In this document: piece after piece, positions 2,650 to 15,965 of the stretch
How the letters are laid out: every line of letters begins with the position of its first letter
How positions within the stretch are numbered: position 1 is the stretch's first letter
Virus record (IMG/VR): IMGVR_UViG_3300017708_002909
Coordinates: 1-21,990 of that record
DNA: 21,990 bases
Source of the DNA: a virus
Direction: 5' to 3' (one strand)
Program-made: the position numbers and the translations under genes
Notes under the pieces: generated by a model
What the model saw: only the letters and a program-made list of their open reading frames with translations
What the model was told of the DNA's origin: nothing
Database searches by the model: none

Positions 2650-3303
2650 TTATTGCATTCCTGCAGATTTTCTTAATTCAAAAGGTATTTGTAATCTTGC
2701 TCCTGTACCTCTACCTACAATAGTTAATGTAGCATATAATACAGTAGCTGTTCCAAACACGTTAATAGAAGTAGCACTTAATGTAAAATTAGTACCTGTT
2801 ACTGTTTTAGAAACATTAGTACCTAATGTTTGTTGAGAGTTTAAAGTATTACTAGAATTAGCTCCACCTCCTATAATATTAGCATAAGTAATGTTAGACA
2901 TTGTCACAGTATATCCTTCCGCTTCAGGAGAAGTTCCAGAAAATGTGGTTGTTTGGGGAGTAAGAGCTGGTATTGTAGTTTCTCCTGTTACTAATTCAAC
3001 TTTACTAAATCCAAGTGAAATAGTAGGCATTACTGCTGTTGATCTAGGTAAAGTAACTAGTTTATACTTCATAGTTTGAAGTTCATTAGGAAAAGCTTCT
3101 AAAACAGGCATATTTTCAATTGCCTCTCCATAATAAGCAGATCCTGAAGGGTGATCAGGATTATATAAAGAATAATCTACTTCATCATCTGATAAGGCAA
3201 ATTGTGTAATATTAAAAGCATTACCACCTTGGGCTAGCAATTCTCTTCCTTTTTTAGTTAAAATAGCATCTACTGTTACTACTTGATTATTTAAATATCC
3301 CAT
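2650..3303 (-). CDS. Conserved phage virion/baseplate-associated protein
   Basis: This 217-residue protein starts MGYLNNQVVTVDAILTKKGR. That opening, with ELLAQGG and FNITQFALSDDEVDYSLYNP after it, is characteristic of a small conserved family in marine and Bacteroidota-type T4-like phages. The function is unknown, but the gene usually sits with tail or baseplate genes. The N-terminal 80 residues are the recognisable part. The rest is a T/S/N-rich, probably beta-sandwich segment (residues 110-217) ending in RLQIPFELRKSAGMQ. Its start is preceded by the longest intergenic gap of the window (71 bases), which carries a promoter-like element. It may therefore begin its own late transcript covering the two fibre-like genes. 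No catalytic motif is visible. Confidence 0.65.
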   Translation of the reverse strand: MGYLNNQVVTVDAILTKKGRELLAQGGNAFNITQFALSDDEVDYSLYNPDHPSGSAYYGEAIENMPVLEAFPNELQTMKYKLVTLPRSTAVMPTISLGFSKVELVTGETTIPALTPQTTTFSGTSPEAEGYTVTMSNITYANIIGGGANSSNTLNSQQTLGTNVSKTVTGTNFTLSATSINVFGTATVLYATLTIVGRGTGARLQIPFELRKSAGMQ

Positions 3304-3374: not shown

Positions 3375-6300
3375 TTAATCTAATTGATTTGGTGAATTTT
3401 GTTGAAATACATTTTCTGATTGTAATTTATTAATTATTTTTTGCACATTTCTTTGTTGTATATCAGTTAAATCATTTGGTACTATATACCCATCTCCTGA
3501 TGGTGTTTGTATTCCAAACGATCCTGAAGGTTGATTTACCTTTAATGTTACTTTACTGTCATCTTGTTTTCTTTTTCTAAAAGTTGCTGCTCTAATACTT
3601 CCTGAAGGAATAGGATGTATTAATGTAGAAGGATCAGGTGATACTATTAATCTATCAAACAAAAATGCAGGATCTAAAAAGTATATTGTTGGTACAGATT
3701 CTCCATCTGTTACATAAGGGGAATTTATTTTATTTGATTTTAATGGAAACTGAAGCGATTTATCAATAATTCCATTATTATTAGTACCAAAAAACCATTG
3801 TATACCTACATTTGGAACATTTGGATCTCTTGCTTTTGTTTTATCTACAGTTACTGTTACTTGAGTTGGACGATTTTCACCATTTAAATTTACTACATAA
3901 TTTGATAATTCTGCAGAAACTAGGGCAGAACCTGAACCTATGTCATTCATAGTATAAGCCCCATAAGTATTATCAGCCCAATAAAAACAAACTTCATTTT
4001 GTATTGCTATATCTAGTCTTCTTTTATATTCTTCTATTTGATATGGATTATTTTTTACTAAAGGTGATGAAGAAGTAATAAGTCCTGAAAGAGTAAAATC
4101 AAAAGTTGAAGGAGATCCAGCCCATGCAAAAGTATCTGTTCTTACAGCAGGAGGAGCTAGTTCATAATCAATTACTTGAAAATCTTGTTGTATAATTGAT
4201 TCAGCAACACCACCAGATGATCCTGATAGAATCTCTTGCGGTATTGCATATGCAACTCTAATTTCATCTCCAGGTTCTATATTTATAGTAGTGTTTTCTA
4301 TTTGTTCATATTCTGTTAACTTAGATCCTGATATGTCCCACCTATAAAAAGATCCTAATTCATCAGGATCTAATATTGGAATAATCATTTGTTGGTCAAA
4401 CTCAGCATTTATTCCAGCAGTTCTAAGACCCATTGAATTAGGTACTACAGGTAATCCACCCCAATCACCATCAGTTTGAGATCCACCAGCTTGTTGTATT
4501 ATTTGAACAATACTCGGCATTCCCTTAGAATAAGTAAATTCTCCCACAAGTGTGGTTGGATCTGGTTTTGGCATAGCATCACCATAAACTATATGACATC
4601 TATTAATTGAGTTCATCCATTGTAAATTAGGACCAATAAGACTACCAATACTACCACCATTATAATTACTAGGTCTAGTAGGTTGAGTATATGATGGTCC
4701 TCTTAAATTTAAAATCCCAAATCCTAAACTAGTAGCATAATTAGAACTTCCAGTAACAAGAAGAGCTATTGCAGTTGATCCTGTATCAGGGAAATTATTA
4801 GGAGTGTCAGGTTGAATTAAATTAGGAAAAGTAGTTAATTTTTGGTAAGGAGCCATATCCTCTGGGAAGAAGAGAGTTAAACCTACTTGTTGTTCAATAT
4901 TATTTGCATTAGGAAGAGTCAATGAATTAAGTCCTTGTCCTGTATAGCTAGGTCTAAAGAAACTTTGAGTTGCAGACATTTGTGTTGGATTCACTTGATT
5001 TGACCAATAAACATCCCAATTAGTTGCCCCTGCAACAATTGGAGCTGCTTCTAATTTCATTCGGTTATAATTAAGGGTTGTTCCATTAAATTTAGCAAAT
5101 GTTTTTGTTGGGTTATTATATATATATGATGCTTTTCTATCTGGTGAAAATGTTGAAGAAACTGGGAGTAAGTTAAAATTATCACCACTTATTAAAGATG
5201 AAGTAATAATAGGTGATTGTTGATCTAATATTTCTTCAAATGGGATTTGGATTAATTGATCTATTACAAATGTAGAAGTACCAAAAATAGATAAATCTTC
5301 ATATGACTGTTTAAAATGTGCTATATTAATAGGATGAACATCTATAACAGCATTTTTACCATATGAAACATCACCTTCCCAACTTCCAGTTTCACCATTA
5401 ATATATTTAACTTGGTGTTGAGCTAGTAATTTTGGGGTATTAGCTATTCCAGTAGGACCAAAAGTTGCTGATCTTAATGGAAGTAAACTTGCTGATGGTA
5501 TACCCGTATAAAAATTATAGTCTGCACTTTCTAATAAACATCCTTTATATCTAGGATTAGATAGAGCTAATGATGTATAATTACTGTCAGGAACTTCAGC
5601 AAATTCTAATAATGTAGTATTTGTAGCTGTACCATCCCATCCTAATTGAGATGCTGATACTAATAGAGAATAATCTGAAGGTATTCCTTCAATTTTAGTT
5701 GATGAAGAAATTACAGGATCAAAATCCATATCAAATAAATATGAATTTTTTCTACTACCACTTATATTATTAATTATAGGATTATATGGTGAATTTTGGA
5801 ATAATTGACTTTGAGAAGGTTGAATAGTAAATCCATCATTAGGGAATAAATGTTTTTCACCTAATGATTCTTCTACTAATGTAATATTAGACATTACAAC
5901 TTCATCTGCTGCACCTGGACATACATAAAATGGAACGATAGCACCATAAGTAGGTGGGATACCACTTCCATTCATACCAGGACCATTTGAATCAACTAAA
6001 TCTTTTCCTTGATAAACAAATGAAAAAGAAAAAGTACCATTAATACCAACTGCTGGAGCGGAAGGGTCTGTATTTTGTTTAAATAATGCATCTCCAGTTA
6101 CAATATCATTTCCTGTTGCAACTAAAAGGCCTGTATCCCCTAATGAATAAACACCCATACCAACTCTACCACCACTAACAACACCTGTTGTTGTAAATGA
6201 TACAGTATATCTTGATCCTACTTTTAATGGAAAGTTTGAATTATGTGGAAAAACAGATCCTGTTATCATTCCAGATGCAGGAGATGCATTAGGTCCAACT

Positions 6301-9300
6301 GTAAATCCAGTTGCAGTACGACTTGCAAAATTAGCATCACTTTCTGCTTGTGTAATATCAATAGCAATTAGCGATCCACTTGTATCTGATGTTTTGTCAT
6401 TTCCGTCAGCAAATATTCTATAGGGATTATATTGGGTTGGAATAACTTCAAAATTACTACCACTATATTCACCATTATAAAATTCATCTTGTGTATCTTC
6501 AACTCTATATTCTCCTGTAAAATCATCTATATAAAACCATGCTTGTTGAGAAGATGATGGTTCAGGTTTTGTAAATTCTGCATCCTCACCAAATGAAAAA
6601 GTATATGCTGAAATTTCAACAGTAGCTCCAGTTCCCGCAATATTCCAGTATAATCTTTCATCTGCAAATGCTTCTAAGTAATTATCTGATATTAATCCTG
6701 GTGGGTCTTGAACTGTTATTCCAGCATATGTAGTTTCAAATATTCCACCTCTTTTACTTGATGTTACTTCAAGTTTTACATCAGTAGCACTTGATGGTAC
6801 ACCTGTAAAAATCATATTTAATCTTACTTGGGATATAAATGTACCTTCTGCTTCAAAGTAAACTTTATCTTGATAATCAACTGCTACAAATATCCCAGAT
6901 TCTATTTGAGAAGCATGATCTGGAAGAGTTGAAAATAAAGGAACAGCTGCTGCTCCATTTGTTAAAGTAATATTATCTCCTTCAGATGTATAAAATCTTC
7001 CTTCATTAGTTATTATATTATATTTATTAACACTTCCTCCTGCACTTCCTGTTAAGGAATACATTCCTATACTTGAAGTAACTAATAAATTTTTCTCAAC
7101 TATTCTACTATTAAATCCTGTTTGAGATGAAGGACCAAATGTATTTGATCCGGTTTCAGGCGTAGTAGCAACTTCAGTATTAATATTAATACCAATCTCT
7201 GTATTTGTTTTGTTTCGCTCTAATAGATGTTGTTTTACGATAATTCCCGTACTTAAACTAGTACGAGCAGGCACATAATTCTTAATTGCTTTAAATAATG
7301 AAGTTTCGTAAAATTTAATTAACCTATTATAATCATATTCTTTTTCAACTAAAGTTGTAGGTGAATTAGGTTCAACATCATTATTAACATTAAAACCTTG
7401 ATATTTTTTAAAATAATCTTCAGCAATACGAGTTAATTCAGGATATCTATCTGAGCTTTCAGAGATAAATCTTGGATCTGCTATTGCATCAGATACTACC
7501 CCATGTCCAAACGTACCTATTATGTCATCATTTATTTCATTTTGAAATGAAAATCCAACTTCTAATGAATTAATATCTTCAGTATAACTTCCACTTTGTT
7601 CAAATTCTTGTTGTATACTTCTAAAAGGTGATAATATTGTACCATATTCATTACCATCAATTACTTGAATTTTATTTTTTATTCTATTTCTAAGACCAGC
7701 TGCAGGTTGGTCCATGTAATTTATTTCATTAATAGGAGAAATCCATGATGCTGTAATATATTGATTATCTGGTTCTGTAGCTATGTCCCATGAGTAATAA
7801 CTACTAGTAACAATACCTCTAGTTGATAATGCATTTTTATACTCTATAAAAGACGAAGTAAATAATTCACCTGTTGAATTTACAATAGAGGGATGAATAG
7901 ATCCTATTCCTTTATCTACTCCTGCTACATTTATTCCAAACTTAAATTGATTTTTAGTATTTCCATAATTTCCTGTAGCAAAATTAGTATATAAACCCCC
8001 CATAGGTGAATTATTAAATTCTAATTCATTACCTAATGAAATTCTATATGATAGTTGATCATAAGAACTACCTGCTCCTGTATTTGAATCTGAATGTCCT
8101 TGAATTGATTCAGGATTCATTACATAATCATTAAATGAAGATGCTGATACTGCTCTTCTATAATATCTAAACTCTTGATACTCCCCTACAAATGGTCTTC
8201 CTATAAATTTACCACCTACTTTCATTATAGCTTTTAAAGCACCAGTTCCTCCTCCTACTATTACATTATTACCACTTCCATAATCTCCATCAAAAGGCAA
8301 TCCTCCTAAAAGTAATGCTCTTTTATTAATACTTGTGGTAGTATTATCAGCATTATCAAAAAACATATTATTCCAAGCTGTATTCATTGAAGATGATATC
8401 TTACCATCAAGCATTTGAATTGAAGCTGATCCCTGAAATCCTATTTGATTTCCATCATAACCATTATATATATTATTTGCTACTCTTAATTCAAATTCAT
8501 TAAGTGTATTATCTTGACCAGATGCAGATAAATTAGTTGATCTTTGTAATTGAACTGACCACCAACCATCATTAAAAAATGGTAAAGAAATTTTAGAAGA
8601 CGTAAAATAATGTCTACCAGAATTTAAAGTACCTTCAATAGCTCCATCACCAACTGAACCAGACATTACTAGTTGAAGAGTTCCATATTGTGAATCTGTT
8701 GGTAATGTAGAGCCGTCAAATGATCCAGAATTTGAACCTGAGTATTCTAATACTATAGCAAATGCTCCTGGGGAATTTGGAACGTTTCCTCCTACTCCAT
8801 CAAACCAAGGTTTAATTAATAAAGAAGAAGTGAAAAACTGATCAGAACCTATTGGTTTTTTGTTTTTAAATCTAAATTGTATACTATCAGGTGGTGAAAA
8901 ATAATTAGATGGGGCTGATGCATCATAAAAATTACTCGCTAGTGGTGTCCATGGTATTAAAACAGAACTACTAGCTTGTGTTCCTAATGTGGATGGAGTA
9001 TTTTTTACTAAAGAACCAGAATAAGTTTTAACTGCTGTACTATAACGATTCATCCATAAATCATAATCGTTTTCATCATCTTTATTTTTACCCCCAAATT
9101 CACTTATACGAAGCATTGTATTAGGAACACCCCATATGTTAATTAATTGTCTTAATCCTGTTACAGTTCCTTTTCTTTTTACTAAAGAAACCATATTGTG
9201 GAAAATTCTTTTATAAATTTCTTGTGATGAATTTTCAATTGGATATGGGAAAGATGGATCTGCTAAAGCTATAACATATCCTAAGGTTGATTGTTTTTGA

Positions 9301-10979
9301 TCATAATAATTAATAACTGAACCTGATGCTATATCTACATAACGACTAATATATTCTAAACCACTTCCAGCTGAAGGGAATACTCCTACTCCATTAGGAT
9401 TAAATCCTATTGAATTAAAATCATTTCCGCCAAGTGTAAATCCTAAAGATTCTACAACATCAGCAGCTAATCCTAAAGGTAAAACAGATCCAGTTAAAGA
9501 AGAATTTGTATTTCTAACTTGTTCAAGGGCTTCAGTGTATATGTAAGCTTCATCAAAAGCTTGACCCGTCATATTTACAAATTTAATATATTGGTTATTA
9601 CTACTATTATCTGTAATAAAAGGAGGTATTAAATAATATAAATAATCTTGGTTATTATTATCATATATTGATGCTGAAAATATTTGATTTTTTCCAGTAT
9701 TAAAATAAGCATCTAATTCATTAGTACTTCCAAACCAATTTTTTGCTTCTGAACTTGAAACTGAAAAGTTTTTATAAGGATATGTTGATGTATATTTAGG
9801 CCAAGATTCAGATCCTGTTACATAGTATAAAAAATATTCATAACTATCAAATTTACTAATAATTTGGTTAATATTGTTACTAATATCATTATAACTAGAA
9901 GAATAATCTACTGATCCTGTAGTATCACCATCAATACCTTCAAGATCTAAAATTTCATCTTCAAAGGCTTCAATTGAAGTTAATTTATCTTTAAAATTAT
10001 TTAATCTTTGTTCTGCAGAAGAATATTTTACAAATTGACTCCAATCTCCCCAATTTTTTCTTATAGCTACTCCTTTTTGGTCTCTTAAAGAATTAAATTG
10101 ATAATATGAAGCTGATGAATTAGTATTAATTAAATCCTTTAAAGTTTTATAATTAGTAGAATTGTTTACTTTATCTTTAATACTTACATTATAATTAGGA
10201 CCTTTAAGTGAAAGTAAATTATCAATAAATTCTAAATTAGGTTGGAAATTTACATTAAATACTTGTGTTTCTCCTACTTTTGTAATAATTTGTAATTCTT
10301 GATTTTCTTCAAATTCTAAAGGAAGTGGATTATATAGTTTTATTAAAATAGTAGCTTCACTAGTAGAACCAGTTACTGGTAGTTCTAATTGACTATTTAC
10401 TGCTATAAAATTTCTATTGTTTTCAAATGAAATATAAAATTCATCAGCATTTTCTCTAGCATTAATTTTATTTGAAAATTGTTGATAATAATTCTCAATT
10501 TGACTTTTATTTAAAAAATTATTTTGAATTCTTAATTCTGTTCTATCCCCAGATATATCTTTTATAAAATAAGGATAACCCTCAAATAATTTTTCATTTT
10601 GATCATTTGGTATTAGCTCAGATCCTAATTCATAATCTATAAAATTATATAAAGCATAATAATTTCCTGAAGAATATCCTTGATTATATATATCTTCAAT
10701 TGGGTTTAATTCAAATTGATTGTAAACAGTATTTGAGCCTGTAGATAGAGGTTGATTTTCAGGTGGTAAATAGGTACCATTAGACTCATAATTTAAATTT
10801 TGATATAATATAGTTTGAGAATAATTGTAAATATAAAATTGAGTTTTACTTTTATTGGGTGTAAAAGAACCTGTTAATTCAATTGAAGGTACAACAGCAT
10901 CTAAGCTTAATTCAAATCCTTCTTGAAGAAAAACTTCAGCGTTTAGTTGTTCAATTGATGCAGAAACTGGTATTGCCAT
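3375..10979 (-). CDS. Giant baseplate wedge/adhesin protein with tail-protein-I-like (gp7-type) segment and LamG-like lectin domain
   Basis: This is a single uninterrupted 2534-residue frame. Residues about 318-386 contain SAEQRLNNFKDKL and a following helical stretch seen in large tail proteins of Bacteroidota phages. Residues about 585-630 (KGTVTGLRQLINIWGVPNT, ending LRISEFGG) resemble the conserved segment of P2-type tail protein I, the counterpart of T4 wedge protein gp7. Residues about 700-960 look like a LamG/concanavalin-type lectin fold, with DGWWSVQLQRS and GEYQEFRYYRRAVS near its end. Residues about 1220-1256 carry FKAIKNYVPARTSLSTGII, then QHLLERN. The rest to the C-terminus is S/T/N/G-rich, probably beta-sandwich modules. 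It follows gp25 and gp6 as gpI does in P2. I infer a wedge component fused to a very large sugar-binding extension. No protease or hydrolase motif was recognised. Confidence 0.72.
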   Translation of the reverse strand: MAIPVSASIEQLNAEVFLQEGFELSLDAVVPSIELTGSFTPNKSKTQFYIYNYSQTILYQNLNYESNGTYLPPENQPLSTGSNTVYNQFELNPIEDIYNQGYSSGNYYALYNFIDYELGSELIPNDQNEKLFEGYPYFIKDISGDRTELRIQNNFLNKSQIENYYQQFSNKINARENADEFYISFENNRNFIAVNSQLELPVTGSTSEATILIKLYNPLPLEFEENQELQIITKVGETQVFNVNFQPNLEFIDNLLSLKGPNYNVSIKDKVNNSTNYKTLKDLINTNSSASYYQFNSLRDQKGVAIRKNWGDWSQFVKYSSAEQRLNNFKDKLTSIEAFEDEILDLEGIDGDTTGSVDYSSSYNDISNNINQIISKFDSYEYFLYYVTGSESWPKYTSTYPYKNFSVSSSEAKNWFGSTNELDAYFNTGKNQIFSASIYDNNNQDYLYYLIPPFITDNSSNNQYIKFVNMTGQAFDEAYIYTEALEQVRNTNSSLTGSVLPLGLAADVVESLGFTLGGNDFNSIGFNPNGVGVFPSAGSGLEYISRYVDIASGSVINYYDQKQSTLGYVIALADPSFPYPIENSSQEIYKRIFHNMVSLVKRKGTVTGLRQLINIWGVPNTMLRISEFGGKNKDDENDYDLWMNRYSTAVKTYSGSLVKNTPSTLGTQASSSVLIPWTPLASNFYDASAPSNYFSPPDSIQFRFKNKKPIGSDQFFTSSLLIKPWFDGVGGNVPNSPGAFAIVLEYSGSNSGSFDGSTLPTDSQYGTLQLVMSGSVGDGAIEGTLNSGRHYFTSSKISLPFFNDGWWSVQLQRSTNLSASGQDNTLNEFELRVANNIYNGYDGNQIGFQGSASIQMLDGKISSSMNTAWNNMFFDNADNTTTSINKRALLLGGLPFDGDYGSGNNVIVGGGTGALKAIMKVGGKFIGRPFVGEYQEFRYYRRAVSASSFNDYVMNPESIQGHSDSNTGAGSSYDQLSYRISLGNELEFNNSPMGGLYTNFATGNYGNTKNQFKFGINVAGVDKGIGSIHPSIVNSTGELFTSSFIEYKNALSTRGIVTSSYYSWDIATEPDNQYITASWISPINEINYMDQPAAGLRNRIKNKIQVIDGNEYGTILSPFRSIQQEFEQSGSYTEDINSLEVGFSFQNEINDDIIGTFGHGVVSDAIADPRFISESSDRYPELTRIAEDYFKKYQGFNVNNDVEPNSPTTLVEKEYDYNRLIKFYETSLFKAIKNYVPARTSLSTGIIVKQHLLERNKTNTEIGININTEVATTPETGSNTFGPSSQTGFNSRIVEKNLLVTSSIGMYSLTGSAGGSVNKYNIITNEGRFYTSEGDNITLTNGAAAVPLFSTLPDHASQIESGIFVAVDYQDKVYFEAEGTFISQVRLNMIFTGVPSSATDVKLEVTSSKRGGIFETTYAGITVQDPPGLISDNYLEAFADERLYWNIAGTGATVEISAYTFSFGEDAEFTKPEPSSSQQAWFYIDDFTGEYRVEDTQDEFYNGEYSGSNFEVIPTQYNPYRIFADGNDKTSDTSGSLIAIDITQAESDANFASRTATGFTVGPNASPASGMITGSVFPHNSNFPLKVGSRYTVSFTTTGVVSGGRVGMGVYSLGDTGLLVATGNDIVTGDALFKQNTDPSAPAVGINGTFSFSFVYQGKDLVDSNGPGMNGSGIPPTYGAIVPFYVCPGAADEVVMSNITLVEESLGEKHLFPNDGFTIQPSQSQLFQNSPYNPIINNISGSRKNSYLFDMDFDPVISSSTKIEGIPSDYSLLVSASQLGWDGTATNTTLLEFAEVPDSNYTSLALSNPRYKGCLLESADYNFYTGIPSASLLPLRSATFGPTGIANTPKLLAQHQVKYINGETGSWEGDVSYGKNAVIDVHPINIAHFKQSYEDLSIFGTSTFVIDQLIQIPFEEILDQQSPIITSSLISGDNFNLLPVSSTFSPDRKASYIYNNPTKTFAKFNGTTLNYNRMKLEAAPIVAGATNWDVYWSNQVNPTQMSATQSFFRPSYTGQGLNSLTLPNANNIEQQVGLTLFFPEDMAPYQKLTTFPNLIQPDTPNNFPDTGSTAIALLVTGSSNYATSLGFGILNLRGPSYTQPTRPSNYNGGSIGSLIGPNLQWMNSINRCHIVYGDAMPKPDPTTLVGEFTYSKGMPSIVQIIQQAGGSQTDGDWGGLPVVPNSMGLRTAGINAEFDQQMIIPILDPDELGSFYRWDISGSKLTEYEQIENTTINIEPGDEIRVAYAIPQEILSGSSGGVAESIIQQDFQVIDYELAPPAVRTDTFAWAGSPSTFDFTLSGLITSSSPLVKNNPYQIEEYKRRLDIAIQNEVCFYWADNTYGAYTMNDIGSGSALVSAELSNYVVNLNGENRPTQVTVTVDKTKARDPNVPNVGIQWFFGTNNNGIIDKSLQFPLKSNKINSPYVTDGESVPTIYFLDPAFLFDRLIVSPDPSTLIHPIPSGSIRAATFRKRKQDDSKVTLKVNQPSGSFGIQTPSGDGYIVPNDLTDIQQRNVQKIINKLQSENVFQQNSPNQLD

Positions 10980-10991
10980 TTTTTATTTTAT

Positions 10992-11423
10992 TTAACTTAT
11001 TCTTGTATCAATATTTACTCTTTCAGTATTTTCAATGTTTGGTCTTCCTGTTCCATCAAATAATACATTATCATTAGGATCAATTGCATCTTCTAAATTA
11101 GTTGCTTCTTGTATTAACTCTAAATTTTGTCTCCTTAAATCAGCAATTTCATCTAATAATGCTTGTATTTCACTACTAATAGTAGCAAAATCAGCATATT
11201 CACCACTAGTTTTTGCAAGATACTCATGAGATTCTATTTCTCCAAGCTTAGGTATAATATAGAAAAATTTATCGTAAAGATACCAAAAATCATCAACTGT
11301 AGCTAAATCTCTATCAAAGAAAGATGGGTCAACTACATTAACTAATTGAGTAAATTCTTTATTTACTGTTTCATTAAATTTATCTTTATTATATCTTTGT
11401 ACTTTTAATGTTGTTTTCTCCAT
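10992..11423 (-). CDS. Small coiled-coil baseplate-cluster protein, function unknown
   Basis: This 143-residue acidic protein has an N-terminal globular part (VVDPSFFDRDLATVDDFWYL, residues about 29-48). A clear heptad-like helix follows around residues 80-112 (EIQALLDEIADLRRQNLELI). The C-terminal tail is polar (DGTGRPNIENTERVN). I do not recognise a named family, but the composition and position suggest an oligomeric structural or assembly protein. Its ATG overlaps the stop of the upstream 491-residue gene by one base (TAATG), which implies translational coupling. The giant wedge gene starts 12 bases after its stop. It may help trimerise or attach the giant protein, much as small coiled-coil proteins do in other baseplates. 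This is an inference from context. Confidence 0.6.
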   Translation of the reverse strand: MEKTTLKVQRYNKDKFNETVNKEFTQLVNVVDPSFFDRDLATVDDFWYLYDKFFYIIPKLGEIESHEYLAKTSGEYADFATISSEIQALLDEIADLRRQNLELIQEATNLEDAIDPNDNVLFDGTGRPNIENTERVNIDTRIS

Positions 11424-12898
11424 TACCCATTTGTTACTTTAAACATTATATCTTCATCAAATACTTTTGTAGTACCATCTATAGTGGTTTTTAATAAAAT
11501 TGTATAATATCTTTCTGGTTCTAATCCTCCCATATAAATATCAAAATAACTAGAGGTTGTATCAGCACTTACTTGAGTATAGGTAGAATCAAATTCTATT
11601 ACATATTCATTTGTTTCTGAGTCTTTTATAGCAAAATATGATTCTTGAGGTAAATAGAAATTTGTTAAATATCCAGATTGTGTTTGAAATACTTTTTTAG
11701 GATATTGAGGAACTGCTGCTATTCTAAATCTTTGTATGCTTTCAGAAAAATATACACCATCATTATTATAAGATGAAATAAATGCTTCAGGTTGTGATAA
11801 AGTTTGCATTTCTGAAGATGTAAAGTAAAAGAAATCATCAAATTTAAAATCTAATTGAGGTGGATATATAGTATTAGTATCTACTGAATAAAATTTAAAA
11901 GTTGAAGCTTGAGATTCAGAAGGGATAAATTCAACTGATGAGGTTTGTTTTATAATAAATCCTTCATTTGGTATATCACCCCCAGTAACTCCTTTAGACT
12001 GACTTATCCAAATATCAACAGTATTAGTTACATTAACATTTAAATCAATTGGATCTGAGTAGGTAAATGTTTGTGTTTGGACTATATCTTTTAATGTAGC
12101 TGAACCTGTGAACCATGTTCCGCCCCCTGTTCCTCCATAAACACTATCATAAGATGCTGTTGTTCTTGCTGTGTATACTGATAAATCTTCATGCCATTCT
12201 TTATCAGCTGTTGAACCAGTCCAAGAACAACCATTTTTAGTAACAGGAGAATTCCCAAATCTTCCTGTTCCCATATCCCAACTTTGTGATATTGGATATA
12301 CTTTTAAATAAGATGTAGAATTTAAATTTGTTACTACAGCTGCATAATTTTTTAAATTAGAACTCCAAATTCTAGGTGTAAAATCTCCTGCTGTTAAAGT
12401 AAATGAAGCTGTTGTTAATCCACCTGCAGTTGTAGGTAAACCTCCTATTTTAATTATATCACCAGGTTTATAACCTTTACCTTTTATATTACGTAAATAA
12501 GGACCAGCTGTGGGAATAACTGCTGCACTTAAGGTATTTGATGATGCAAACAATTGAAGTTGACCACCAATACCCTTTCCTGTAGAAGCAGTTATAGGAT
12601 AATAAGAAGAATTTACAAGTGTGTCGTTTATATTTGTGGGATTATCTGTTATAGAAGAAAATATATTTCCATTAAGATGATTTATATAATTAGTAGAATT
12701 AGCAGAACTAGAAACATAAGTATCAAAAGCACTATCTATTTCTGTTGATGGAAATTTAATTAAATATCTACTAGTTTGTGCATTACTATCTAATAAATAA
12801 GTAGATGCTTCTAATATTTGATCTAATCCTGTATTCATGTCAGGATCTTGGGTGTACAATGTAGCGTCTTTTTCAGGAAATAGTTTATAAATTGCCAT
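11423..12898 (-). CDS. DNRLRE/CBM96-like structural protein of the baseplate cluster
   Basis: This protein has 491 residues. Its N-terminus (DATLYTQDPDMNTGLDQIL, residues 11-29, then SRYLIKF at 43-49) resembles the first strands of DNRLRE/CBM96-type beta-sandwich domains, which are found in cell-surface and phage adhesive proteins. A second recognisable block is YPISQSWDMGTGRFGNSP at 201-218, followed by W226 and GGTWFTGS. Residues about 84-190 separate these blocks and contain GKGYKPGDIIKIGG (140-153), a motif like those in fibre repeats, so they may be an inserted small domain. The C-terminal third looks like further beta-sandwich modules (RYYTILLKTTIDGTTKVFDE near the end). It is probably a virion surface protein between wedge and fibres. 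Its start lies four bases after the stop of the repeat protein gene. Confidence 0.58.
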   Translation of the reverse strand: MAIYKLFPEKDATLYTQDPDMNTGLDQILEASTYLLDSNAQTSRYLIKFPSTEIDSAFDTYVSSSANSTNYINHLNGNIFSSITDNPTNINDTLVNSSYYPITASTGKGIGGQLQLFASSNTLSAAVIPTAGPYLRNIKGKGYKPGDIIKIGGLPTTAGGLTTASFTLTAGDFTPRIWSSNLKNYAAVVTNLNSTSYLKVYPISQSWDMGTGRFGNSPVTKNGCSWTGSTADKEWHEDLSVYTARTTASYDSVYGGTGGGTWFTGSATLKDIVQTQTFTYSDPIDLNVNVTNTVDIWISQSKGVTGGDIPNEGFIIKQTSSVEFIPSESQASTFKFYSVDTNTIYPPQLDFKFDDFFYFTSSEMQTLSQPEAFISSYNNDGVYFSESIQRFRIAAVPQYPKKVFQTQSGYLTNFYLPQESYFAIKDSETNEYVIEFDSTYTQVSADTTSSYFDIYMGGLEPERYYTILLKTTIDGTTKVFDEDIMFKVTNG

Positions 12899-12902
12899 TT
12901 AA

Positions 12903-13688
12903 TTATATATTAAAGTTTGTTAAGTCATCAAGTTTAGGACCAATATCATTAGGAACTATACTTTCATCAATAGATGTAGGCACACCACCTGTACCTGGTT
13001 GTTGGTTTAATCCACTTCCTATAACTTCTTCAATTTCTAAACTTGGGTCTGCAAGAACTTCTAAATACGTCCTATTAGGAGTATATTGTTGTAATGTCAT
13101 TGTTTCCAATGTTCCCCCATCTTCGGAATTTTCTGTAGTATCTATGAATTTTGCTCTTGTAGGATATCTTAATACTTTATATTGACCTCCATCTATAAAT
13201 GTAGATTTTTCTCCATTTGCAGCTGATGTTCTATTTGGTCCTCCACTTGCTCCTTGTTTTACTCCTGCTTCTGAATTTTCAACATCTAAAGCTGTAGTTT
13301 TAAAAGTATTTGTTAGTGGTGATTCACCATCTGTAGCTCTTACTATTCCTTCTTTTGTAGTATAAAAAGGATTTTCAGGTGTATAATTTTGTACAAAACC
13401 TGATCCGTTAGGACCATCATCATTAATAGGACCACCAGTACCTCCTTGTTTTGCACCAGCTGAATTGCTTTCAACATCTAGACCTGTTATTTTAGTAGAT
13501 TGGATTAAATCATTAGTTGAAATATCAGATCTTACTACTCCTTCATTAGTAGTATAATATGCATTATCAGCATTATACCTTTGAATAAAGCCAGATGATG
13601 GGTTGTTAGTTATTCCTCCATCTATGGGAGTACCATCTACAGGTTGTGATTCTTTTTGGTTGTTATATATTTCTAATAAACTTTTCAT
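12903..13688 (-). CDS. Baseplate-cluster protein with two 64-residue tandem repeats
   Basis: This 261-residue protein has two adjacent repeats of exactly 64 residues, at 32-95 and 96-159. By hand alignment they match at about 30 of 64 positions with no gaps. Shared elements are SGF-x-Q-x-Y, YTT-x-EG-x-VR, LDVE, AG-x-KQG and GGP. Partial echoes flank them: GTPIDGGITNNPS before, and GLNQQPGTGGVPTSIDES near residues 227-243. The C-terminal third has LRYPTRAKFIDTTE and ends in an acidic tail. No enzyme motif, membrane segment or signal peptide is seen. The gene lies directly after gp6-like (9-base gap), where T4 and P2 place further wedge or adaptor genes. I infer a structural adaptor or baseplate-periphery protein. 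The family is not recognised by name. The leader is A-rich with no Shine-Dalgarno sequence. Confidence 0.62.
   Translation of the reverse strand: MKSLLEIYNNQKESQPVDGTPIDGGITNNPSSGFIQRYNADNAYYTTNEGVVRSDISTNDLIQSTKITGLDVESNSAGAKQGGTGGPINDDGPNGSGFVQNYTPENPFYTTKEGIVRATDGESPLTNTFKTTALDVENSEAGVKQGASGGPNRTSAANGEKSTFIDGGQYKVLRYPTRAKFIDTTENSEDGGTLETMTLQQYTPNRTYLEVLADPSLEIEEVIGSGLNQQPGTGGVPTSIDESIVPNDIGPKLDDLTNFNI
13212..13403 (-). repeat. Internal protein repeat unit 2 (residues 96-159)
   Basis: This is the second 64-codon unit of the 261-residue protein, directly abutting unit 1. It starts SGFVQNYTPENPFYTTKEG and ends SAANG. Confidence 0.8.
13404..13595 (-). repeat. Internal protein repeat unit 1 (residues 32-95)
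   Basis: This is the first 64-codon unit of the 261-residue protein. It starts SGFIQRYNADNAYYTTNEG and ends DGPNG. It is the same length as unit 2 with no indel, which suggests a folded domain duplicated in tandem. Confidence 0.8.
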
Positions 13689-13698
13689 ATTTTTTTAT

Positions 13699-15558
13699 TT
13701 ATAATGGTACTACTCTTCCAACAATATCTGATTGTGGATATTTTAATTCAAATACCATTGGATCAACTGATGGATAAATTATACCATTATTAGTAGCAGC
13801 CAACAAATCATAAGAATAATCACTATATCCTTTACTTGCACCTGCTATATTTTTAATTACTACATTAGTTACAGTTTGTACTCCTTCTACTTTATCTAAT
13901 AAAATTGATATTTCTTTTAATAAAATAGGTTGGTTAATATTCCAATTATCTATATTAAAATAATCTGTTAATTCAGTTATACATCTTAAAATTACATCAT
14001 TATTATTAAAGTTAGGTAATACAATTATATCAAATTCACATATTATATTAATAATATAAGCATCTTTTATTTTAATAGAATCATTTATCATCCTATATTC
14101 TGATAGATAAGTTTTTAAGTTTTGTTTTAATGTTGTTGATGCTGTTCTTAAATTTTTATTAGAATTATATGATAACACATACATATCTAAAATAGTTGGT
14201 AACTCTCCTATCCCATATTCAGCTACTTTTGTAGGTTGTATATAAGCTTTAGCAATAGTACCAATATTAGCAGGCATACTTAAAGCTCTAATTAAATAAT
14301 CTTGTTGAGTAACTGTTCTTAATTGGTTTTGAAAATTACCTAAAGCATTTTGTCTAGTTTCTTCTATAGTATCTGCTCCTTGTCCTCCATCAGCTGCTAA
14401 AATATTATTTACAGCAACAGAATCAAAAATAGAATCTGCTAATGCAGTGTCAGTAATTGCTGGATTAGTAAAAGTAACATTAGTAGGATTAAAATTAGTT
14501 AATGTTCCTGAGGCAACATTTGATTCTAATCCTCCTCCAGTTAAATATCTTATTGTTAAAGTTGTGTTAGCAGGAGCTATACCATAAGTATCAGTAAACA
14601 TAAAATTTAGGGGAGAAAATGCAGTGTTTAATTTATCTTTAGAAAAAGATAAACCTGTACCTACATTATCTGGATTTGGTACTATATTTTCATCATTATC
14701 ACTAACAGTTCCTGCACCAAACCCTATTTGTAATGTAGTAGAATTTAAAAACCTTGTTGTGAATCTTCTTTGTACTTGTTTTAAATTTAATAAATTTGGG
14801 GCATCATCTTGAATAGCATTAGGGTCTGTATAACTTGCGTTTATTTTTGTAGTAAATACCGTACTTTGTGCTAAATTTAATACTTCATACCATTCATTAC
14901 CATCGCTATCAAAACAATCTAATACATTTATAATATTTGCAGCATTTATATCAACTACTGGAAATTTTGAAGGGGATGTAAAAGATGCATCTATTGAATT
15001 AATAGTTCCTGATATTGCTTTTCTTGTTTTTTTCAATAAAAATCTATTTGGTTGTGTTCCTGATATAGAATAAATTGATATTTCAGTTGGATCTTGTGAT
15101 GAGGAAATAGAAAAATCACACACATCTTCAGTTATAAATTTAATATTTGAATTTTCGTTAGATGTTACTTGAAAATTCTCAGGAATTTTTAAAGCATAAT
15201 CAAAATCTGGGACTTTATTATCTGCAGGTCCTTTTGCTGGTAGTTGTTGATAGAAAACAATATCCACAGTAGCTGCTGTTGTTACTTTAGGTCTATATCC
15301 TAACATATAAGCTAGATCAAATAGATTTTTTTCTTGCCTAGCATATTGTATAAAAGTTTCTTGAATTTGATTATCTAAATAAAAAGATAAAACATCTCCA
15401 ACATATGATGCCATTTCAATAAATAACATTCCTGTTGAATCAGAAGAAAAGTCATTAAAAGTATTTGGAAAATAAGTTTTAGAATAATCTATAAGAGCAC
15501 CTCTAAATGTATTAAAATCTCTATTTGTATATGTTATATTTCTATTTAATTCTGCCAT
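13699..15558 (-). CDS. gp6: Baseplate wedge protein, gp6/gpJ-like
   Basis: This protein has 619 residues, close to T4 gp6 (660). The N-terminus, including ITYTNRDFNTFRGALIDYSK and GMLFIEMASYVGDVLSFYLD, is diagnostic for the gp6/baseplate J family, followed by FDLAYMLGYRPK. The C-terminal half has QDYLIRALSMPANIGTIAKA at about residue 420, then VLPNFNNNDVILRCITEL, LLKEISILLDKVEGVQTVTN and a short tail. In T4, two copies of gp6 plus one gp7 form the wedge core, and gp6 joins wedges into the iris ring around the hub. It is coupled to gp25-like upstream by TAATG, the same order as P2 W-J. The candidate gp7 partner is the giant protein downstream. Assignment to the family is firm; exact interfaces are not visible. 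Confidence 0.9.
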   Translation of the reverse strand: MAELNRNITYTNRDFNTFRGALIDYSKTYFPNTFNDFSSDSTGMLFIEMASYVGDVLSFYLDNQIQETFIQYARQEKNLFDLAYMLGYRPKVTTAATVDIVFYQQLPAKGPADNKVPDFDYALKIPENFQVTSNENSNIKFITEDVCDFSISSSQDPTEISIYSISGTQPNRFLLKKTRKAISGTINSIDASFTSPSKFPVVDINAANIINVLDCFDSDGNEWYEVLNLAQSTVFTTKINASYTDPNAIQDDAPNLLNLKQVQRRFTTRFLNSTTLQIGFGAGTVSDNDENIVPNPDNVGTGLSFSKDKLNTAFSPLNFMFTDTYGIAPANTTLTIRYLTGGGLESNVASGTLTNFNPTNVTFTNPAITDTALADSIFDSVAVNNILAADGGQGADTIEETRQNALGNFQNQLRTVTQQDYLIRALSMPANIGTIAKAYIQPTKVAEYGIGELPTILDMYVLSYNSNKNLRTASTTLKQNLKTYLSEYRMINDSIKIKDAYIINIICEFDIIVLPNFNNNDVILRCITELTDYFNIDNWNINQPILLKEISILLDKVEGVQTVTNVVIKNIAGASKGYSDYSYDLLAATNNGIIYPSVDPMVFELKYPQSDIVGRVVPL

Positions 15559-15965
15559 TATTGTAGTGCTATATTAATTTGATCTTCTGCTCCTATATTG
15601 CGAACTGTATAATTTAAAATGAAATTTATAGTATTTCGATCTTGTTGGTTATCAAATTCTATTGTTTTTACTTCTACAGAAGGAAATCTTGAATTTATAT
15701 TATCTCTTATTCTTGCTTCTAATGCAGATGTTACTCCATCATTGATTCCTTCCCATAATAAAGCTCTTAAATCTGCTCCAAAATTTGGTCTAAATACTCT
15801 TTCTCCTTTATTTGTTAATAAATAATTAATTAAATTAGTTTTAACTACTTCTCTAGTAGTAAATGTAGGGTTAAATACTGCTCTTCCTGATAAGGGGAAG
15901 CTAAACCCCAAAGCAGCGCTACCACTATTAACAGTAGGAAAAACATTATCTATAATTCTAGCCAT
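15558..15965 (-). CDS. gp25: Baseplate wedge protein, gp25/gpW-like
   Basis: This 135-residue protein is nearly the length of T4 gp25 (132). It carries the family core NKGERVFRPNFGADLRALLW (residues about 52-71), the EPR-like motif region that anchors gp25 in the wedge core and links to the sheath-initiating end of the baseplate. A further match is IRDNINSRFPSVEVKTIEFD, then NTINFILNYTVRN near the end. In contractile tails this protein is needed for sheath polymerisation and is conserved from P2 and pyocins to type VI secretion (TssE). Both ends overlap neighbours by one base (TAATG), so it is probably translated in step with the 117-residue gene before it and gp6 after it. Confidence 0.93.
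   Translation of the reverse strand: MARIIDNVFPTVNSGSAALGFSFPLSGRAVFNPTFTTREVVKTNLINYLLTNKGERVFRPNFGADLRALLWEGINDGVTSALEARIRDNINSRFPSVEVKTIEFDNQQDRNTINFILNYTVRNIGAEDQINIALQ

Follow-up and report, generated by a model that had tools for sequence, protein, structure and literature searches.

A 2534-residue phage protein, probably a gpI/gp7-type baseplate wedge subunit with an inserted LamG-like domain and two fused neighbouring modules

The window, which is the whole stretch of DNA analysed here, is a virus record of 21,990 bases. On its minus strand, positions 3375-10979 form one uninterrupted frame of 2534 codons, and the plus strand of the same interval is closed by numerous stops. Homologues encoded as a single ORF of 2398-2849 aa were found in ten other IMG/VR contigs (L004, L005, L008-L012 and L018-L020), with 48-66% identity to the window protein in their best segments. 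This excludes an assembly artefact, and the 2534-residue ORF proposed in the initial annotation is real. A profile search recovered at least 536 relatives in viral contigs of IMG/VR, and a genome scan gave two MAG matches only. Few relatives have a name: a 1265-aa protein of Flavobacterium phage immuto, a 1336-aa protein of Microcystis phage Mel-JY01 and a 1400-aa protein of an uncultured 484-kb phage. When the whole window protein was searched against Pfam, PHROGs and the PDB sequences, no match was obtained. The contig of one relative (L096, 3-5096) was assigned by binning to Candidatus Nitrosopelagicus; it could be a phage contig misbinned in an archaeal MAG, or could belong to a virus of archaea.

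The features of the locus, in the direction of transcription, are as follows.

15558-15965, minus strand: 135-aa sheath initiator resembling gp25, encoded upstream within the operon (GPW_gp25, E 5.5e-11)
13699-15558, minus strand: 619-aa wedge protein similar to gp6 (PHROG 'baseplate wedge subunit' at E 3e-16)
11423-12898, minus strand: p491, conserved structural neighbour that precedes A in all loci compared; wedge motif absent
10992-11423, minus strand: p143, small protein whose conserved gene immediately precedes A and occurs in nearly all loci compared; wedge motif absent
3375-10979, minus strand: whole ORF, 2534 aa, ATG start, single frame
6390-10979, minus strand: module A, residues ~1-1530, putative wedge scaffold with inserted LamG domain (homology to separate A genes and to immuto gp109)
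9084-10922, minus strand: conserved N core, residues 20-632, in all relatives (mean identity ~74% in the close family)
9084-9188, minus strand: gpI/gp7 KG[T/S] motif, residues 598-632
8100-8999, minus strand: LamG/concanavalin-like domain, residues ~661-960, between N core and core2
7020-7712, minus strand: core2, residues ~1090-1320, with the motif FKAIKNYVPART, kept in nearly all relatives
6570-6890, minus strand: V1, residues ~1364-1470, rapidly evolving beta-sandwich towards the C-terminal end of module A (AF2 pLDDT about 72-87)
5505-6389, minus strand: module B, residues ~1531-1825
3378-5504, minus strand: module C, residues ~1826-2534
2650-3303, minus strand: p217, conserved marker closing the A-B-C interval, found behind A/B/C in all layouts counted (58% identical to immuto gp107)

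Nearly all relatives whose loci were compared share the order gp25, gp6, p491, p143, A, ..., p217, p351, p395. Phage immuto (vB_FspM_immuto, NC_055915) has the same order, with a spike gene, gp25, gp6, p491, p143 and A to p217, and its gp25 and gp6 carry baseplate annotations. The gp6-like protein of the window is 45% identical over its length to the baseplate wedge protein annotated there. In the window gp6 and A are separated by three genes, and in most relatives by two; the window's own family has an extra gene, p261, between gp6 and p491. Judged by similarity and gene order, the gp25-gp6-p491-p143-A region is a contractile-tail baseplate operon. We also considered p491, p143, B and C as counterparts of T4 gp8-gp11 or of cyanophage gp8, for which no support was found. 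Cyanophage ACG-2014f has a virion structural protein of 2406 aa, part of which is matched by residues about 89-193 of p491 (HH E 4e-5); the immuto homologue of p491 lacks much of this segment.

The window protein consists of three modules in a fixed order, A, B and C. Where A is a separate gene it encodes 1190 aa (L041) or 1187 aa (L026); the end of module A at ~1530 is approximate, as it was set by alignment. Conservation is highest in the N core, which in an AF2 model of L041 has a beta-rich N-terminal domain followed by a helical region. N core and core2 co-occur in nearly all relatives, and where the LamG domain is absent core2 follows closely after the N core. Immuto gp109 (1265 aa, annotated as hypothetical) is homologous to the window protein in N core and core2 but lacks the LamG insert, and the gene after it encodes a separate B-like protein of 403 aa. 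Within the close family, conservation forms a mosaic in which residues 1-650, 931-990, 1081-1320, 1481-1530, 1711-1950 and 2431-2530 are conserved, with fast-evolving stretches between them.

A gpI-like segment had been proposed at about residues 585-630, and a motif was indeed found at residues 598-632. This stretch, SLVKRKGTVTGLRQLINIWGVPNTMLRISEFGGKN, resembles P2 gpI (FIHCHKGTIGAIRRVVEPLGYLINVTEWW), T4 gp7 (FYSTKGIEASYKFLFKVLYNEEVEIEIES) and cyanophage gp7 (FYQSKGSEESFKILFRVLYGEDPLVIDLE). When it was compared with a combined profile of 62 columns, made from eight gpI and seven gp7 sequences and the cyanophage protein, the HH E-value was 2e-4 (up to 3e-3 with the full module) and none of 500 column shuffles was as good. 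Since the 62-column region was picked around the KG motif, this E-value is somewhat flattering. The comparison of the family profile with gpI alone is free of that bias, and there none of 200 column shuffles was as good. P2 gpI (Tail_P2_I, TIGR02242) carries a KGT motif within a surrounding pattern like that of the window protein; it differs in having 176 aa, in being encoded apart from the fibre gene H and in having no LamG domain, B or C. T4 gp7 (1032 aa) has the KG motif and is the wedge gene after gp6, as in the window, but taken alone it gave no significant alignment to the family profile, with 32 of 200 shuffles as good. TIGR02242 was the most frequent NCBIfam match (18 of 60 members). 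In the three members with positions shown it falls on the KG[T/S] motif, and the profile columns involved are those that P2 gpI matches too. Since the NCBIfam entry PRK08320, for an unrelated aminotransferase, was matched repeatedly as well (13 of 60, best E 9e-4), the recurrence of TIGR02242 alone was not counted as proof.

Further comparisons were made around this motif. The neighbours p491 and p143 (34 and 65 of 100 shuffles as good, respectively) and modules B and C matched the motif profile no better than shuffles. Domain-wide alignment of the region to gpI or gp7 gave E-values of 0.04-0.5; the positive control, gpI against gp7, was also non-significant, so that this test lacks power and its failure is not evidence against a wedge protein. 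Searches with the gpI-like region of the members against Pfam and PHROGs yielded no recurrent relevant match, its profile against the PDB found no wedge protein, and the module A profile had no match in the T4, P2 and S-PM2 genomes. A T4 gp7 profile had no match in the genomes of the relatives, and as it had none in S-PM2 either, this search is uninformative; PF09684 gave zero matches across one phylum and is of no use. The 50 matches listed in a PDB fold search with the L041 A-gene model, whose helical region is of mixed confidence, include no wedge protein and are mainly lectin-like folds. In BFVD there were two weak matches to 'baseplate wedge initiator' (E 0.015 and 0.036), for which the query region is unreported and could be the lectin domain. 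Core2 had looked by eye like the C-terminal part of gpI (PASR/PART), but this was rejected as 196 of 200 shuffles were as good. Together, the 35-residue motif and the position in the operon suggest that the protein is a member of the wedge.

Directly after the motif, between the core blocks, lies the domain at residues ~661-960, in agreement with the lectin-like domain initially placed at about 700-960. The number of residues that separate N core from core2 is bimodal among 66 aligned sequences, with 21-52 in seven, 281-484 in 59 and no values in between, which indicates a discrete insertion with empty sites. The domain is also absent in immuto (L001) and L095. LamG-free sequences fall into three separate clades of the N-core tree, and thus the domain was gained or lost more than once. 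Its absence by HMM in L002, L003 and L085 was rejected as a failure of sensitivity because hundreds of residues lie between N core and core2 in these sequences; a count of five LamG changes on the tree would consequently be an overstatement.

The fold was predicted on a homologue. The complete A gene of L041 was modelled as it fits the size limit, and the window's own domain is homologous to it by HMM. In this AF2 model the insert has a pLDDT of mostly 60-91, with most strand blocks at 86-91, and Foldseek matched the model to laminin G, neurexin, agrin, pentraxin and CBM40 (E 2e-5 to 1e-3). Laminin_G_3 of Pfam matched three of 51 members (best E 0.12) and not the window itself; the domain is therefore named LamG-like by its fold and not as a member of that Pfam family. 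The sole sequence-profile matches of the domain in the PDB were to neurexin-1-alpha (E 0.3-0.6). A LamG jelly-roll fold is supported as a predicted structure. The mean identity of the LamG domain is about 0.41, compared to 0.74 for the core. LamG domains often make protein-protein contacts instead of binding sugars.

Modules B and C correspond to genes that are separate in other loci. In L041 the genes A, B and C (1190, 329 and 508 aa) lie one after the other before p217. Typical sizes of the separate genes in several relatives are about 330 aa for B and about 508 aa for C. B is a separate gene of ~330 aa in L041, L043, L047, L026, L034 and L063, and C is separate in L041, L054, L059, L094 and others; the unfused B genes have their own conserved starts. 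Using hhalign, the end of B was found at residues 1718-1822 of the window protein (HH E 1e-7), the start of C at 1872-1966 (1e-3 to 3e-3) and the end of C at 2453-2524 (2e-5 to 7e-5), with the order of B end, C start and C end kept. Among 65 loci classified, 19 (including the window) have ABC in one gene, eight have A|B|C, seven AB|C and three A|BC, and in most of the remaining loci B or C was undetected. The gene number changes at least 10 times on a tree built from 59 N cores, compared to a mean of 19 for shuffled labels. Read without a root, each of these changes may be a fusion or a fission. In L073 (10004-17146), a break between LamG and core2 divides A into two ORFs of 1140 and 1228 aa, of which the latter also includes B and C; this could be a further natural split or a sequencing error.

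The initial annotation had described the rest of the protein as a very long beta-rich tail of probable sugar-binding or adhesive modules. This is correct only in part. An AF2 model of residues 1335-2534 was poor (mean pLDDT 49), too poor for conclusions, and confident beta structure is confined to about 1364-1470, a beta-sandwich, and less so to 2234-2399. Most of the tail consists of the fused equivalents of the neighbour genes B and C. Foldseek with the 1335-2534 model, including V1, returned generic jelly rolls, none at E <= 0.001, and no tail-fibre family of Pfam or PHROGs was matched. Sugar-binding modules in the C-terminal half are thus unsupported.

Wedge proteins with added modules have been described before, and calling the architecture unusual, as was done initially, is too strong. 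In cyanophage ACG-2014f (NC_026927), which has the gp25-gp6-gp7 order, a protein of 4225 aa (YP_009134330.1; L119 14978-27655) stands in the gp7 position. It is annotated as 'baseplate wedge subunit' and is far larger than T4 gp7. A KG[S] motif near its N-terminus matches T4 gp7 (HH E 2.5e-5) and a YHYH domain lies at 1248-1342, but homology to the window protein is undetectable beyond the motif. AlgoCIS has the large wedge proteins Alg11, with two carbohydrate-binding modules, and Alg12, and its gp7-like part was termed a hotspot of evolutionary re-engineering (PMC8894135). Compared by description, Alg12 fuses gp6- and gp7-like parts and not gp7 with downstream genes (PMC8894135). Gp119 of phage Vp4 is a baseplate wedge protein with carbohydrate-binding folds and is reported to bind cells; it is wedge protein 3 of a Herelleviridae phage and has other module types, and the accessible text reports no fusion of the kind in the window (PMC11406892). 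In pelagimyophages and cyanomyophages T4 gp7 is apparently replaced by VrlC, and unidentified structural proteins with concanavalin-A and YHYH domains occur (PMC7029224). With the precedents of ACG-2014f, AlgoCIS and Vp4, host contact built into the wedge is not a new idea. As far as these analyses show, the ABC fusion and its repeated joining and unjoining are new.

We consider it probable that the window protein is a gpI/gp7-type wedge scaffold subunit (A) of a contractile-tailed phage, with a LamG domain inserted beside the motif and with B and C joined C-terminally. We infer that it is present in the virion, most likely as six copies in the wedges around the spike. The N core, the motif and core2 would build the scaffold together with gp6 and gp25, from which the LamG domain would project, probably touching host surface glycans. 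B and C, covalently held instead of by assembly, may form or anchor the outer baseplate. Sugar or receptor binding may be suggested by the LamG fold and by the non-significant generic jelly-roll similarities, which are its sole hints. A further step would be one covalent 'wedge-adhesin' chain of scaffold, lectin and outer baseplate B and C, whose parts are repeatedly joined and unjoined and in which the LamG domain would relay host contact straight to the contraction-triggering scaffold. This we regard as doubtful.

Other explanations were weighed against the same data. The protein could be a giant tail fibre or adhesin, with a fibre-like baseplate adaptor as its N-terminal part, a motif that is convergent or borrowed, and the true gp7 encoded by another gene of the operon. 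The motif has just 35 residues, the PDB matches listed include no gp7 fold, fibres commonly contain LamG and other beta-sandwiches, and p491 and p143 stand between gp6 and A, all of which would fit a fibre. However, the motif beats all shuffles and coincides with the TIGR02242 positions, conservation peaks in the N core, unlike in fibres, and p491 and p143 fail the motif profile. We therefore hold a fibre to be unlikely. Still less probable, in our judgement, is that a protease cuts the fused chain into A, B and C at virion maturation, so that the fusion would be an expression strategy and the machine would be as in the unfused relatives. Fused and unfused states do interchange repeatedly with the gene order otherwise unchanged, as expected if joining is neutral; however, no protease gene was recognised among the ten window proteins scanned, and conservation is comparatively low in the stretches around the junctions.

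Of the alternatives, the one we take most seriously, although we lean against it, is that the LamG-like domain is a structural spacer or a fibre-docking surface and not a glycan site, which is compatible with wedge membership. The domain adjoins the wedge motif, and it was gained or lost among relatives that keep the rest of the protein. XM1 gp17 offers a parallel, as it has unresolved flexible parts with a reported role in tail spike binding (PMC10457771). On the other hand, the LamG domain changes more rapidly than the core. Such a rate is often seen in parts that face the host, but a co-evolving contact with a fibre would fit it as well.

If the protein is a gpI/gp7-type wedge scaffold, this gives a likely identity to a wedge protein unrecognised by Pfam and PHROGs, in a group that is widely sampled in IMG/VR. 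The LamG-like domain is a clean natural insertion with empty sites for comparison. Moreover, with three tail proteins whose covalent joining switches repeatedly, B and C are predicted to touch the wedge in every relative.

Two minor observations concern the operon. Among the loci laid out, p261 (12903-13688) is confined to the window's family (L018), and it contains an internal imperfect repeat, SGFIQRYNADNAYYTTNEGVVRSD / SGFVQNYTPENPFYTTKEGIVRATD. The starts at 10979-11020 of the window (minus strand) and at 10001, 13588 and 14579 of L041 have no clear Shine-Dalgarno sequence and are preceded by A/T-rich leaders, e.g. TAAATAAAATAAAAA ATG. Such leaders would fit a Bacteroidota host, and the host group is possibly Bacteroidota.
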